NCBI GenBank assembly: GCA_031283445.1
Contig: JAITBT010000064.1
Location: 1-53,884 of the forward strand
Source of the DNA: Holosporaceae bacterium
Lineage (GTDB): Bacteria; Pseudomonadota; Alphaproteobacteria; UBA3830
DNA length: 53,884 bases
Direction of reading: 5' to 3'
Both the position numbers and the translations under genes were made by a program. Under the pieces are notes generated by a model. It had not been told where the DNA came from. It made no database searches and saw nothing but the letters and a program-made list of their open reading frames with translations. This document shows positions 2,682-7,996 of the stretch, piece after piece (the stretch's first letter is position 1; each line of letters starts with the position of its first letter).

Positions 2682-3698
2682 TTACAAAGCAGACTTAAAA
2701 TAAAAGTCCATAGTTTTTAGTAGCAGAGTGTCCATGTCGACGATGGGGTTCCATCCCAGAAGGGCTCTTGCATTTTTAATGGATGGGACTCGTGCCTCTA
2801 CATCTTGATAGGATTTTCCGTAATAGTCGGCCGAACTGGTATGGATAATGCTTATTTTTTCTGCCGAGTCTTTCAATTTATCATATTTTTTTGCAAAAAC
2901 TACAATTTTCTCAGCTAGTTCTTTTATGCTGCATTTGTTATTGGGATTACCTATGTTGATTATTTGTTTATCGACGTTATTACTCTCCAGAATTTTCATT
3001 AGAGCATCAATACCATCGGAAATATAGGTAAAACAACGAACCTGAGCCCCTCCATCAACTAGATTGATATTTTTTCTATGAAAAATATTGCTTAGGAATT
3101 GACTAACTACGCGAGAACTTCCGTTGTTTTCGTTATAAATATCATCCAGACGAGGTCCAATCCAATTAAACGGACGAAACAACGTATAGCGCAGGCCACT
3201 CCTGACACCGTATGCGAAAATAACGCGATCCAGCATTTGCTTCGAGCAGGAATAAATCCACCTTTGCTTACATATGGGGCCTGTTACGCAATTGGAGCTA
3301 TCCTCTTCAAATTCATCGTCATTGCACATACCATAAACTTCTGACGTGGAGGGGAAAATAACGCGTTTATCATATTTTACAGCAGATTTTACTATCTTTA
3401 GATTGGCTTCAAAATCTAACTCAAATACTTTAAGAGGATCTTGCACGTAAACCAATGGACTAGCAATGGCTGCTAGCGGAAAAATCACATCACATCTTTT
3501 TATGTGATCTTTCAGAGAATTAAAGTTCGTAACGATATCTATTTCGAGAAAATCAAATTTTTTTTCAGGCAACAGATGCTTGATTTTAGAGGACGAAATA
3601 TCAATGGCAGTTATCTGCCAATCCTTGTGTTTTTTAAGAATCTCTTCCGATAAATGGCTCCCGATAAAACCGCCGGCGCCGATAATTAGCACATTCAC
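2682..3698 (-). CDS. arnA: UDP-glucuronate decarboxylase, stand-alone ArnA dehydrogenase domain
   Basis: Oxidatively decarboxylates UDP-glucuronate to UDP-4-keto-pentose, the first committed step to L-Ara4N. The 338 residues match only the C-terminal half of enterobacterial ArnA, a short-chain dehydrogenase fold. Visible are the NAD loop GAGGFIG at 7-13, PSTSEVYGMC with Ser119-Glu120, Tyr149-x3-Lys153, and Arg303 in VEARVPSIKNA. Glu120 and Arg303 correspond to the decarboxylation residues Glu434 and Arg619 of E. coli ArnA. The N-terminal formyltransferase half is absent and no separate copy lies in the window. It is the last gene of the arn operon, starting three bases after the arnC stop codon. 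Confidence 0.9.
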   Translation of the reverse strand: MNVLIIGAGGFIGSHLSEEILKKHKDWQITAIDISSSKIKHLLPEKKFDFLEIDIVTNFNSLKDHIKRCDVIFPLAAIASPLVYVQDPLKVFELDFEANLKIVKSAVKYDKRVIFPSTSEVYGMCNDDEFEEDSSNCVTGPICKQRWIYSCSKQMLDRVIFAYGVRSGLRYTLFRPFNWIGPRLDDIYNENNGSSRVVSQFLSNIFHRKNINLVDGGAQVRCFTYISDGIDALMKILESNNVDKQIINIGNPNNKCSIKELAEKIVVFAKKYDKLKDSAEKISIIHTSSADYYGKSYQDVEARVPSIKNARALLGWNPIVDMDTLLLKTMDFYFKSAL

Positions 3699-3701
3699 AG
3701 A

Positions 3702-4721
3702 CTATTCCTCTTTTTCTAATATCTCTCGAATTACAAAACGCGGATGTTCGCAAACGGCAAAATATGCCCTTCCCAAATATTCTCCCAAAAGTCCAACTCC
3801 CAAAATTATGACGCTCAACAGTAGAAATACAAATGCAAAATGCAATCCATATCCATGATGATTACCGATGATTTTTTTGAATAATTCCACAAAGAAGTAA
3901 ATCCCACTGGCAGAAGAAATTACCATACCAATGATCGTAAAAACCTGTAGTGGAATCAAAGAAAATCCAGTCAATAGGTCAAACGCAATACGTATTAGCT
4001 TGTACAGATTGTACTTGGAATCGCCCGCTTTGCGTTCCACATGAGTGACGGGAATATCAATAGGATTCCCTGCGAATTTCTGAGCAAGAGCCGTAATAAA
4101 GGTCGAAGTTTCCCGGGTTTTCACAACTTCATCTATAATAAACCTTTTATAGGCTCGTAGCATGCAGCCGTGATCCTTCATGATAATGCCGGTGGCGCTG
4201 GCTCTGATGTGGTTCACCATTTTTGATGCATATGTTCTAAAAAAATTATCCTGACGTTTCATTCTATAGCCGCCAACAAGATCATATCCTTCATCTATTT
4301 TGCCAAGCAAAATCGGAATTTCTTCTGGTAGATTTTGTAGATCTGCGTCTAGCGTAACAACTACATTTCCACGAACATGTTCAAATCCAGCTAAAATAGC
4401 TATATATTGGCCATAATTGCCATTGAACATAATGACTCTTATAACATCAGAGCGCCTTTTAAATAGGCTTCGCAATTTTGTAGAAGTTTTATCACTGCTA
4501 CCATCATCTACAAATATCACTTCGTATCTTTTTTTGATGGCATCCATTGTTTTCAGAAGACGCTCACTCAACTGATCTACATTTTCTTGCTCATTGAAGA
4601 TTGGAATTACCACCGATATCTCTACGATATTCGTAGTGCGGGTTTTTATCTTTTTCAACTCCAACCCTACCGGTTTTTCCTTTTTCAATTTTGTCGCTTT
4701 TACAGAAAGCTTTTCAGACAT
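3702..4721 (-). CDS. arnC: ArnC-like undecaprenyl-phosphate aminoarabinose transferase
   Basis: A family 2 glycosyltransferase expected to move the aminoarabinose unit from UDP to undecaprenyl phosphate at the inner face of the cytoplasmic membrane. It shows VVIPIFNEQEN near 37, VDDGSSD at 71-77 and the metal-binding DADLQN from 125. Two hydrophobic segments follow at about 245-270 and 290-320, as in ArnC. The 339-residue length is slightly over the usual ~320 because of a lysine-rich N-terminal extension of about 34 residues. Classical ArnC uses the formylated sugar, yet no formyltransferase is seen here, so the true donor may differ. It could also be a dolichol-phosphate-mannose-synthase-like enzyme, but the operon favours ArnC. 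Confidence 0.85.
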   Translation of the reverse strand: MSEKLSVKATKLKKEKPVGLELKKIKTRTTNIVEISVVIPIFNEQENVDQLSERLLKTMDAIKKRYEVIFVDDGSSDKTSTKLRSLFKRRSDVIRVIMFNGNYGQYIAILAGFEHVRGNVVVTLDADLQNLPEEIPILLGKIDEGYDLVGGYRMKRQDNFFRTYASKMVNHIRASATGIIMKDHGCMLRAYKRFIIDEVVKTRETSTFITALAQKFAGNPIDIPVTHVERKAGDSKYNLYKLIRIAFDLLTGFSLIPLQVFTIIGMVISSASGIYFFVELFKKIIGNHHGYGLHFAFVFLLLSVIILGVGLLGEYLGRAYFAVCEHPRFVIREILEKEE

Positions 4722-4735
4722 ACTACCACCGTCTA

Positions 4736-5881
4736 TTATTCGAAAAACTTCTTAACCGTGTTGATTATATAATCTTGCTCACTCTCTTTTAATTCATAGT
4801 ACAGAGGCAGACACACAGCACGCTCTCCAATATATTCAGCATTCGGAAAGTCACCTTTTTTATAGCCAAAAGCCTTCTGATAATAGCTAAATAGATGCAC
4901 CGGAGTACAATACGAAGCCGATTCAATAAGATTACTTTTCAGATACGATATAAATCTATCCCTTTTGGTTTCATCGTATAAGCAAACAGGGAAAAGATGC
5001 CCCGAATGGATAAAATCGTAAGTTGGAACATCCTGCGTATAGATTTTATCTTTTATATCATAAAGATGATAACTATACCTACTGGCCAAATAACGTCTTC
5101 TTTCGTTCAACATATTGACATCTTCCAGCTGGTGTATACCTATGGCGGCTTGTAAATCCGACATATTGCTTTTACCGCCTGGAAATATGACATCATAATC
5201 GCCACCACTATTTTCCTCTCCCATCGGACGGTTTATGCCATGAAACCTCTGTAGCGCCAGCACTCTTTGTTCGGACTCTGAATTTAAAACAACGCATCCC
5301 CCTTCGCCGGAAGTTATGTTTTTAATGGGGTGGAAACTGAAAACTTGTATATCTCCAATAGTGCCAATTTTACGATCTTTATAGTACGCACCAAAAGCAT
5401 GAGCAGCATTTTCGATGACTCGAACGTTTTTTTGCTTCGCTACTTCATAAATTGGATCTAAATCAACGGGCATTCCTACATAGTGAACTGGTATAATAGC
5501 TTTGGTCCTGGAAGTGCACGCATCATATATTCTATTAGAATCTATGTTAAATGTATCGCTTTCCACATCCACAAAGACTGGTTTAGCGCCGAGCATTGCG
5601 ATGACGTTGGCAGTTGCAACAAACGCCAAAGGCGTAGTAACCACTTCGTCATTTTTCTTTACTCCGATGGTCATTAGAGCAGCGTGAAGCCCAGCGGTTG
5701 CCGATGCAAAACACATAGCTATCCTTCCTTCAAAATATTCCGATAGCTTACGCTCGAACTTCTGGACTCTAGGGCCCGTGGCTAGCCCCCCAGATTTTAA
5801 TACACTCAGAACTTCTTCAATTGTTTCTCGACTTATGGTTGGTTTGGAAAGCGGAATAAAATCTTCTTTATCTTTTAGCAA
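4736..5881 (-). CDS. arnB: ArnB-like UDP-4-amino-4-deoxy-L-arabinose aminotransferase
   Basis: A PLP enzyme of the DegT/DnrJ/EryC1 family expected to transaminate UDP-4-keto-pentose to UDP-L-Ara4N. The 381-residue length is normal. The Schiff-base lysine is Lys187 in FSFHPIKNIT, and SATAGLHAALM, PVHYVGMP and SGEGG match ArnB. One change stands out: E. coli ArnB has IEDAAHA, whereas this protein reads IENAAHA, so the Asp that normally pairs with the PLP ring nitrogen is Asn158 (codon AAT on the minus strand). This may weaken or alter catalysis. The gene overlaps the upstream flippase-like gene by 14 bases and precedes arnC by 14. Confidence 0.85.
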   Translation of the reverse strand: MLKDKEDFIPLSKPTISRETIEEVLSVLKSGGLATGPRVQKFERKLSEYFEGRIAMCFASATAGLHAALMTIGVKKNDEVVTTPLAFVATANVIAMLGAKPVFVDVESDTFNIDSNRIYDACTSRTKAIIPVHYVGMPVDLDPIYEVAKQKNVRVIENAAHAFGAYYKDRKIGTIGDIQVFSFHPIKNITSGEGGCVVLNSESEQRVLALQRFHGINRPMGEENSGGDYDVIFPGGKSNMSDLQAAIGIHQLEDVNMLNERRRYLASRYSYHLYDIKDKIYTQDVPTYDFIHSGHLFPVCLYDETKRDRFISYLKSNLIESASYCTPVHLFSYYQKAFGYKKGDFPNAEYIGERAVCLPLYYELKESEQDYIINTVKKFFE

Positions 5882-6221
5882 TTAACGCCACTCCTACTAA
5901 TATCAGAAAAATACCACTGCTTCGAAGCCATGTGATATTTTCCGCAAAGAAAAACCATCCTCCCAGTGCTGCCAATACATATGACAAACTACCAAATGGA
6001 TATAAGAAGCTTAACTCAAATTGAGATAATAAATAAAGCCATAACAGTAAAGAAAAAACAAAAATAAAAACTCCTCCACATATGTAAATATTGGAAACTA
6101 ATGCCAAAATCAATTTATATATAGGGAGATCGAAATTTATGAACACAACTCCTTTTTTCAATAAAAGCTGTGCCAGTGTATTTATAATAACTTGAAAGAA
6201 TATAAGAACAAAATTAATCAT
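5868..6221 (-). CDS. Small EamA-type membrane protein, ArnE/ArnF-like
   Basis: A 117-residue protein with four predicted membrane helices, at about 3-20, 33-60, 68-88 and 95-113. It has the size and layout of the ArnE and ArnF halves that flip undecaprenyl-phosphate-aminoarabinose to the periplasmic face. Only one half is present here, whereas E. coli has two unequal ones. It may work as a homodimer, or a partner may be encoded elsewhere. The start codon overlaps the arnT stop by 4 bases and its end overlaps arnB by 14, so translation is probably coupled. On its own the sequence could be a generic small multidrug-resistance-type protein; context makes the arn role likely. Confidence 0.7.
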   Translation of the reverse strand: MINFVLIFFQVIINTLAQLLLKKGVVFINFDLPIYKLILALVSNIYICGGVFIFVFSLLLWLYLLSQFELSFLYPFGSLSYVLAALGGWFFFAENITWLRSSGIFLILVGVALIAKR

Positions 6222-7906
6222 CTATTTGTTATTACTATAAAATGCTTATCTAAGTCTATAATTCTATGTGTAAAGTTTGTTTTCAAGAATGCTTCTCGGT
6301 AGTGTTCCAAAGATGATAGCAGAAATATTCTTTTGTCAGTAGTATTCCACAATTCCCAAAAGTCACTTTCTGCCGCTAATTGATTACTATTTTTATTAGC
6401 TTTGGCTCCGAACTCTAATTCTCCAACAAAATCTACTACTCCAACTGTTGCTTTAAGATAGACTGGAAAGTCCTGATAATATCTTTTATAACAAAAAACC
6501 AAATCCTCTTTTTTTTTGTTCATATTTATTAGTTCAGCTAAATATTTTGTAGATGGCTTTTTAGCTTCCTGATAAAATACCGCAACTTTATTGATCAGCC
6601 ACATCATATTTGTGCTAATAAAAATATATGCCAGAACTGTGCCTACTTTGGACGCTTTTCCATAAATGGTACAAAAGGGAATAATTGCTACTACGATTAA
6701 TAGTATCGCAAAAATGTTTACCAGCAAAACAGCTTCTGGATTTTGCAGAACTACTGCTATTTCCGATTTCGCCAGAATATAGGCCACATAGGCTATCCCG
6801 AATAGTATAATGTTGCTCCATGCTCCGGATCGGAAATTTTTGTTGCAGGATCCAACAGATTCTACCAGCATAATTCCAGTTATCAGTGCAATAGGCGGCA
6901 TTAGAGGCAGAATATATGGAATTAATTTCGAGCTAGAAAAAGAAAAGAAAGCCAATACCCCAAAAATCCAACACATAAAAAATATATTTTCAGAATTTTT
7001 GGATATGGCCTTTTGGAAGGAATTTTTTATGGCCACCAATGAAAATCCCGTCCAGGGCAAAAGCCCTACCAGTAGGATTGGAATGAAAAACCACGGTGCC
7101 TGATATCTGTTATGGCCTGTGGAAAAATATCTTTGAAAATGCTCTCCAATAAAGTAGAAATGCAAGAAATCTTTATCTCGCAAAGCCATCATAACGTGCC
7201 AAGGCAAAAATATTATGAGGAAAGCTAAGATTCCTTGAGGGTATAGCATTTCTTTTATTTGTGGCCAATTTTTTGTAAATACAATCCACAGCAGAATCAC
7301 GATTCCTGGAAGGACGATGCCAATTAACCCTTTAGTGAGACATGCTAGAGCTGCAAATATATAAGCCCAGAAAATGTAGCCTTTTAATATCGCTGCTTTC
7401 GGGTCTTTTTTTACAAAGGCGATAAAGAAACACCAGAGTGTGCCACTTATGAACACAGATACCACTAAATCAAGAATAATCAAACGACTGTGAGCATAGT
7501 ACAGAACATTTGTTGCTAAAATTCCGGCAGATATCAGTCCAGTCATTCGCGAGTAGTACTGAGATCCTACCCAAAATACCCCCAGACATCCAATAATTGC
7601 AAAAAAGATAATCCACAATCTCATGGATGTTTCATTAATGCCGATGAACTTTACGACTCCCGCCTGAAGCCAATAGAATAATGCTGGTTTTTCGAAATAT
7701 TTCAGTCCATTTAACATGGGGGTGATAAAATCTCCGGTCGCCGCCATCTCACGAGAGATTTCTACATACCTTCCCTCGTCCGGATCTGCAAAATTACGAT
7801 TTCCTACTTCATAGGAAAAGAAAATGGCCAATATTATAGCAAGAAAGAGAACACCCTTTGCGCCTCCATACCAGATGCTCTCATCCTTGAATTCCTGATC
7901 TTGCAC
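6218..7906 (-). CDS. arnT: ArnT-like lipid A aminoarabinose transferase
   Basis: An integral inner-membrane glycosyltransferase (PMT/GT83 type) expected to transfer L-Ara4N from undecaprenyl phosphate to lipid A phosphates on the periplasmic side. The 562 residues contain about a dozen hydrophobic segments. A first periplasmic loop carries the acidic motif DPDEGRY at 41-47 followed by MLNGLKYFEKPALFYW, typical of ArnT. The C-terminal ~120 residues are soluble. The GTG start is only 19 bases downstream of the tRNA-Gly gene, with GTGGAA as a weak ribosome-binding site, so a separate promoter is unlikely unless it lies inside the tRNA. It is the first gene of the arn operon. Confidence 0.85.
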   Translation of the reverse strand: MQDQEFKDESIWYGGAKGVLFLAIILAIFFSYEVGNRNFADPDEGRYVEISREMAATGDFITPMLNGLKYFEKPALFYWLQAGVVKFIGINETSMRLWIIFFAIIGCLGVFWVGSQYYSRMTGLISAGILATNVLYYAHSRLIILDLVVSVFISGTLWCFFIAFVKKDPKAAILKGYIFWAYIFAALACLTKGLIGIVLPGIVILLWIVFTKNWPQIKEMLYPQGILAFLIIFLPWHVMMALRDKDFLHFYFIGEHFQRYFSTGHNRYQAPWFFIPILLVGLLPWTGFSLVAIKNSFQKAISKNSENIFFMCWIFGVLAFFSFSSSKLIPYILPLMPPIALITGIMLVESVGSCNKNFRSGAWSNIILFGIAYVAYILAKSEIAVVLQNPEAVLLVNIFAILLIVVAIIPFCTIYGKASKVGTVLAYIFISTNMMWLINKVAVFYQEAKKPSTKYLAELINMNKKKEDLVFCYKRYYQDFPVYLKATVGVVDFVGELEFGAKANKNSNQLAAESDFWELWNTTDKRIFLLSSLEHYREAFLKTNFTHRIIDLDKHFIVITNR

Positions 7907-7925
7907 AAGTATTCCACTAAATCTG

Positions 7926-7996
7926 AGCGGGCGAAGGGAATCGAACCCTCATCACAAGCTTGGGAAGCTCGTGCTCTGCCATTGAGCTACGCCCGC
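7926..7996 (-). tRNA. tRNA-Gly (anticodon CCC)
   Basis: The minus strand folds as a full cloverleaf of 71 bases. The acceptor stem pairs GCGGGCG with CGCCCGC, the D arm is GCTC/GAGC, the anticodon stem is CGAGC/GCTTG with loop TTCCCAA, and the T arm is GAGGG-TTCGATT-CCCTT. The anticodon is CCC, and the anticodon and T arms resemble E. coli glyU. The discriminator is T and CCA is not encoded. It lies between pntB and the arn operon. A promoter is visible upstream. Confidence 0.95.

Follow-up and report, generated by a model that had tools for sequence, protein, structure and literature searches.

The closest described relatives of the system considered here are the arnBCADTEF genes of E. coli, which serve the transfer of 4-amino-4-deoxy-L-arabinose (L-Ara4N) to lipid A, and the split arn operons known from betaproteobacteria and other proteobacteria, where formyltransferase and dehydrogenase are encoded by separate genes. 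Two further systems offer comparison: the UDP-4-keto-pentose/UDP-xylose synthase known from Ralstonia, and the ArnC- and ArnT-like proteins of Francisella and Bordetella, which add amino sugars to lipid A without the formyltransferase of ArnA but, unlike the system described below, begin with N-acetyl sugars and rely on a deacetylase. Analyzed here is an arn operon in a 53,884-nucleotide stretch of DNA (the window, meaning that whole stretch; contig C44, JAITBT010000064.1) from a draft genome of a Holosporaceae bacterium (932,477 bases, 78 contigs, 94.24% complete, 2.14% contamination). Like E. coli it has homologous dehydrogenase, ArnB, ArnC and ArnT genes and one ArnE/F-type subunit, with the same catalytic residues; unlike E. 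coli it has no formyltransferase domain, no ArnD and only one flippase subunit, its gene order is T-EF-B-C-DH (DH, dehydrogenase), and a helix of the ArnC pocket is altered. The split operons resemble it in their stand-alone dehydrogenase and often single EF-type subunit, but keep the formyltransferase and mostly ArnD. Judged by its genes, the window system is a variant of the Arn pathway, expected to follow it as far as UDP-L-Ara4N and to rejoin it at the lipid-linked sugar, although it fails two defining Arn features, the formyltransferase and ArnD; the operon probably specifies an abbreviated path for attaching L-Ara4N to lipid A, in which ArnC would take unformylated UDP-L-Ara4N directly. 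A literature search that left most subscription journals and bioRxiv outside its reach found no recognisable paper on a pathway that dispenses with formylation or ArnD. Species having both ArnA domains, fused or separate, were counted in one survey, whose section 3.1 does not discuss dehydrogenase operons without formyltransferase (PMC12650200).

The operon runs on the minus strand in the order arnT, arnF-like, arnB, arnC, dehydrogenase (7906..2682), with adjacent genes overlapping or at most 14 bases apart. The first gene (6218..7906, 562 aa) encodes an ArnT-like lipid A glycosyltransferase with PMT (71.8 bits) and Arnt_C (33.6 bits) domains, both over the Pfam cut-offs, and a match to the ArnT structure PDB 5ezm (E=1.4e-53); its best NCBIfam match is an Arn model, below the equivalog cut-off of that model, and it retains the Asp of the PDE motif and the Glu-Lys of FEKP. 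It is followed by a single ArnF-like flippase subunit of the small multidrug resistance (SMR) type (5868..6221, 117 aa), which falls below the cut-offs of the ArnF model (43.5 bits; cut-off 99), the ArnE model (23 bits) and EamA (22.5 bits; cut-off 28.2), but a gene of this type sits between arnT and arnB in relatives too. The lack of a separate ArnE was rejected as a special feature, as formyltransferase-bearing loci (those with a formyltransferase gene or domain) often have one EF gene too. The arnB-like gene (4736..5881, 381 aa) encodes a pyridoxal phosphate (PLP) aminotransferase of the DegT family (360.6 bits) with ArnB chains (4lc3, 1mdo) as top PDB matches and a lysine aligned with E. 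coli Lys188. The arnC-like gene (3702..4721, 339 aa) encodes a polyprenyl-phosphate glycosyltransferase of family GT2, which has the ArnC model as best NCBIfam match (305.9 bits, under the cut-off of 529), matches PDB 9hwj (E=6.2e-81), lies in trees among ArnC rows of formyltransferase-bearing operons, and retains both Asp of the DAD motif as well as residues equivalent to GtrB Arg122 and Arg200. The last gene (2682..3698, 338 aa) is a stand-alone ArnA dehydrogenase/decarboxylase without formyltransferase domain, aligning with the C-terminal half of ArnA and matching PDB 3slg and ArnA dehydrogenase domains. It scores above the curated cut-off of NCBIfam NF008872, the bifunctional UDP-4-keto-pentose/UDP-xylose synthase (496.3 versus 294 bits), but unlike that enzyme it is encoded in an operon with ArnB, ArnC and ArnT homologs.

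The positions in ArnA, ArnB, the DXD motif of ArnC and ArnT that are listed here are ones we take to be catalytic. The window dehydrogenase keeps the equivalents of all seven ArnA residues (Thr432, Ser433, Glu434, Tyr463, Lys467, Asn492, Arg619). Among loci without formyltransferase (near-copies included; seven Holosporaceae genomes, L067-L073, enter these and some other counts twice), all 65 dehydrogenases have six of the seven, and 64 of them also have Ser433; the PLP lysine is present in 53 of 53 ArnBs, both DXD aspartates together with the Arg122 and Arg200 equivalents in 64 of 64 ArnCs, and the PDE aspartate in 44 of 44 ArnTs. Judged by these residues, the short-operon enzymes look active. 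Arg122 and Arg200 are named as catalytic residues in the description of GtrB in PMC4728340.

The initial annotation had placed five minus-strand arn genes here, which the reading frames and family searches bear out, and had noted that the formyltransferase half of ArnA and ArnD are absent. Inspection of the five genes and family searches found neither in the operon, and the absence extends to the draft genome at its 94% completeness. The genome search that the same annotation proposed, for a formyltransferase, an ArnD-like deacetylase and ugd, returned fmt only, none, and a ugd, respectively. The one match to PF00551 (Formyl_trans_N) in the genome is fmt (288.1 bits versus a cut-off of 201.5), adjoining a frame that resembles peptide deformylase (def; named from sequence), and the ArnA formyltransferase profile finds this place only, at 127.7 bits, where formyltransferase proteins of formyltransferase-bearing loci score 386-442 bits with a similar profile (11 examples). 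Neither PF01522 nor the ArnD profile has a match in the window genome, the unrelated NaxD/YdjC deacetylases lying outside this search. The genome contains lpxC (PF03331) and, away from the operon, ugd (PF03721).

The short form is common in the window's order. ArnC, counted at E of 1e-80 or better, occurs in 44 of the 49 genomes examined, most of them of ~1 Mb, and the ArnD profile finds ArnD in none of the 49 (a single 10-bit match, E 0.154, in G009 was disregarded). Members of Holosporales are described as obligatorily associated with eukaryotic hosts, and one family as having termite-gut members, in a review (PMC11909080). The isolate codes of the related Holosporaceae records resemble those of bins from termite guts. 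Half of the ArnC-bearing genomes, 22 of 44, have the five genes in an unbroken T-EF-B-C-DH series that leaves no space for another gene: the window, 16 of the 20 neighbourhoods of a first set, L192, L202, L204, L206 and L219 (in L043 and L046 arnT runs into the contig end, and in L206 it is split over two frames). The first 20 neighbourhoods were chosen among genomes with an ArnB match, and the contiguous share is biased for that reason; the exceptions among them are L047 (contig end), L050 (dehydrogenase not adjoining), L053 (arnT and dehydrogenase not adjoining) and L057 (arnB alone). The remaining 22 of the 44 comprise 10 genomes without an ArnB ortholog and 12 in which the genes lie apart, do not adjoin or are cut by contig ends. 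Since gene order is conserved in relatives, chance is no explanation for the arrangement. Conserved genes for trigger factor and ClpP lie downstream of the operon in two relatives (L052, L059) but not in the window; they were set aside as unrelated, and the difference indicates that the genomic position of the operon varies.

The short form also occurs outside the order. Screening of GTDB genomes with the dehydrogenase as query yielded at least 593 pattern matches, of which the best 80 loci, some of them cut by contig ends, were analyzed. Formyltransferase is present in 63 of these, ArnD in 51 and neither in 16 within the stretch examined, while the contig-cut L118 has ArnD only; the nearest named relatives of the window among the 80 are Holosporaceae metagenome-assembled genomes (MAGs). 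The 16 are the seven Holosporaceae, L076, L079 (a 3.5 kb contig), L081, L096 (Ca. Odyssella), L101, L105, L117, L135 and L144 (Facilibium subflavum). L101 has an ArnC that groups, weakly supported, with Ca. Odyssella; its record bears the title Rhizobium sp., which may be wrong, and the assembly is ~1.1 Mb in size. L081, L105, L117 and L135 have arnB next to the dehydrogenase gene but neither arnC nor arnT within the stretch examined; they are Gammaproteobacteria or titled so, with an ArnF-like gene in two cases, and perhaps represent another use of UDP-L-Ara4N or UDP-pentose. Whole-genome searches with PF00551 in 15 of the 16 (all but L079) gave 0-2 matches each versus 4-5 in four formyltransferase-bearing controls; outside Holosporaceae these matches score 147.8-178.6 bits, in the manner of Fmt and PurN, with one exception. 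That exception is an unexplained 1,427-aa frame with a formyltransferase-like part (L157:240-4523; PF00551 70.6 bits, formyltransferase profile 97.3 bits) in G068, a gammaproteobacterial MAG with a short arn operon. The PF01522 deacetylases of the eight non-Holosporaceae genomes of short type (G068-G075) were rejected as stand-ins for ArnD: none of the nine places (L147-L155) matches the ArnD profile even at E 10. This profile gives at least 334 bits for 51 of its 52 matches in the collected loci, the other being contig-cut, and PF01522 detects ArnD in four of four formyltransferase-bearing controls (27.7-34 bits). In the order of Facilibium, ArnC is present in 10 of 33 genomes (L144, L231-L239), and neither formyltransferase nor ArnD was found at any of the ten loci within the stretch examined, the rest of the genome having been searched for L144 only. 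These loci have the order EF-B-C-DH, with arnT adjoining in L144, L237, L238 and L239; L235 ends at arnC, L237 has no adjoining arnB, and in L237 and L239 the dehydrogenase is followed by a gene that looks like ugd from the beginning of its sequence.

Among the enzymes, ArnC bears a possible sign of altered use. In an alignment of 120 ArnC rows, 56 formyltransferase-bearing and 64 without formyltransferase (57 distinct genomes), 53 columns are invariant in the former, and exactly one of these is lost in all 64 others, that of E. coli Leu220: Leu in 56 of 56 formyltransferase-bearing rows, but Ile in 51, Tyr in 11 and Val in 2 of the rest, including Ile245 of the window (codon 3987..3989, minus strand). 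The same test finds no such column in the dehydrogenase (78 invariant columns), ArnB (24) or ArnT (13), as would be expected if only ArnC meets the formylated donor. Leu220 aligns with GtrB Phe215, the offset being fixed by Tyr209, Leu212 and Ala216, and lies in the helix that makes the membrane-side part of the substrate pocket. Taken singly, each clade without formyltransferase has one column private against the formyltransferase-bearing rows, and it is Leu220. Other ArnC changes follow lineage. In the window's order His81 is replaced by Tyr, Pro185 by Thr (in one case by Asn) and Glu197 by Asp, the last replacement being found also in 10 of 11 gammaproteobacterial rows. In midpoint-rooted ArnC trees (87 rows, and 71 chosen rows without the Leu220 column) the formyltransferase label changes twice, and supported branches force two changes; rows without formyltransferase are placed among formyltransferase-bearing rows, which fits two losses of formyltransferase and ArnD, with the caveat that the root is a midpoint. 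On these trees the short form arose at least twice.

These observations can be assembled into a candidate pathway. Ugd, encoded elsewhere in the genome, would make UDP-glucuronic acid, which the stand-alone dehydrogenase would oxidise and decarboxylate to UDP-4-keto-pentose and ArnB would aminate to UDP-L-Ara4N. ArnC would then move the free amino sugar straight onto undecaprenyl phosphate, the single ArnF-like protein would help to flip the lipid-linked sugar, and ArnT would attach it to lipid A, its predicted target. The ArnB step is unfavourable, and it may be pulled by immediate use of its product by ArnC and ArnT. What the sequences show is the gene content, the lack of formyltransferase and ArnD, the kept catalytic residues, two or more origins and the ArnC change, whereas the donor used by ArnC, the product and this driving force are what we infer; if ArnC uses UDP-L-Ara4N directly, the formylation/deformylation cycle can be dropped, and without formylation a deformylase would have no task. 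The initial annotation had left three options: that the free amino sugar is transferred directly, that the missing genes have distant copies, or that the end product is new. Within the limits of the 94% complete draft, distant copies in the window genome are excluded; a new end product may yet apply, above all in relatives that have no ArnB ortholog; and direct transfer is favoured because the short form is common in the order, arose at least twice, and comes with a matching ArnC change. The shortened pathway proposed there thus gains support from the genome-wide absence of both genes, the spread within the order, the two or more origins and the change in ArnC.

Several findings weigh against direct transfer of L-Ara4N. 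Only the N-formylated derivative is said to be a substrate of ArnC in a recent review (PMC12748117). At NCBIfam the window aminotransferase scores higher with PseC (319.7 bits; cut-off 423.5) than with the ArnB model (310.6 bits; cut-off 631), although its place in the operon favours its identity as ArnB. No ArnB ortholog (at least 50% identity) is present in 10 of the 44 ArnC-bearing genomes of the order (G007, G009, G013, G018, G021, G025, G028, G041, G043, G045), contrary to what a strict Ara4N pathway would lead one to expect. In 12 of the 49 genomes the ArnA formyltransferase profile matches more than once, the best matches being those at 191.9 (G011:C56:8991-9836), 188 (G042:C33), 176.1 (G037:C10) and 161 bits (G036:C6); these four genes may be formyltransferases for other surface sugars. 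Leu220 may serve the lipid path instead of touching the sugar. A sign test of formyltransferase absence against the Leu220 change has only two pairs (p 0.5) and cannot reach significance, because only two origins are forced. Among pairs of formyltransferase-bearing clades, 501 of 508 share no private column and 7 share at least one (three of these seven pairs leave at most six rows for comparison); this version, made with formyltransferase-bearing rows only, is preferred since a first clade-pair control (2 of 1867 pairs non-zero, both made up of clades without formyltransferase) was biased against formyltransferase-bearing pairs. By this measure the Leu220 signal is unusual, but no further than around the one per cent level.

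The likeliest of the alternatives is a different end product, a reading that we regard as rather doubtful: the dehydrogenase would be a UDP-4-keto-pentose/UDP-xylose synthase, ArnC and ArnT would move a pentose that is not necessarily Ara4N (e.g. xylose) to lipid A, and formylation would be needless as there would possibly be no amine to protect. The score of the dehydrogenase above the NF008872 cut-off points this way, but the dehydrogenase of the formyltransferase-bearing operon L077 also passes, and the name of the model therefore does not separate the products. The ten genomes without an ArnB ortholog also point this way, and the sugar may differ there. In five loci (L193, L197, L198, L200, L205) arnB is gone, the flippase gene abuts arnC and the other four genes lie side by side, and the nearest ArnB homolog is PseC by cut-off in G013 and a DegT protein under every cut-off shown in G025; in such genomes another aminotransferase may serve, or the sugar may be unaminated. 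Against this, the window has an intact ArnB in its operon, with the PLP lysine, and an ArnB ortholog is found in 33 of the 44 genomes (in G080 the contig ends in arnC). On contig C45 of the window genome (L230), a sugar cluster contains several DegT genes, among them another aminotransferase (L230:4685-5869) that scores above the PseC cut-off and was set aside. Direct transfer and loss of ArnB can also be combined in a tentative scenario, to which we give slightly more credence than to a different product throughout: formylation would be no inherent part of aminoarabinose transfer, in two lineages ArnC would have switched donor, with the Leu220 change as its mark, and the formyl cycle would have been lost as a unit, after which some Holosporaceae would have lost ArnB, with ArnC and ArnT placing an unaminated pentose on lipid A.

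It is unlikely that the formyl cycle is instead kept by other proteins, with Fmt formylating UDP-L-Ara4N and an unrelated hydrolase (Def, NaxD/YdjC-like or PIG-L-like) deformylating it, or with another N-acyl group in its place. The side-by-side fmt and def-like genes would provide such a pair, a PIG-L-like frame (named from its sequence start) lies in the sugar cluster at L230:8059-8754, and YdjC and other hydrolase families were outside the searches; but the gene in question passes the fmt cut-off, fmt beside def is the usual translation pair, and no extra gene is present among the five in the 22 contiguous copies, whose flanks are partly annotated. Decay of the operon into a functionless remnant is very improbable: in some relatives arnB is missing, or arnT or the dehydrogenase gene does not adjoin the rest (L050, L053, L057), but the frames are intact, the catalytic residues are kept, and ArnC persists in 44 of 49 genomes, most of only ~1 Mb. 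That formyltransferase and ArnD merely lie in the missing part of a draft 94.24% complete in 78 contigs is scarcely credible, and an assembly gap is rejected, because none of the 49 genomes of the order has a match to the ArnD profile, against 44 with ArnC, and because elsewhere the two genes are mostly in the operon, which here is whole.

A tRNA-Gly(CCC) gene (7925..7996, minus strand) lies 18 bases upstream of arnT as a neighbour outside the pathway, and on the other side a class I lysyl-tRNA synthetase-like frame (397-1965) adjoins a family 4 type uracil-DNA glycosylase-like frame (1966-2631), both named from sequence. A scan for promoters and terminators showed no clear excess over shuffled sequences (24 versus 19.1, sd 4.3; 4 versus 4.9).

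A natural pathway without formylation and deformylation would reveal the purpose of that cycle, and comparison enzymes for donor choice would be at hand in the short-operon ArnCs, which include that of the named strain Facilibium subflavum. If the tentative scenario of ArnB loss were true, a charge-masking system would have turned neutral in the Holosporaceae that lack ArnB. The shortened route, for its part, would mean that small-genome bacteria can retain a sugar modification of the outer membrane at lower cost.

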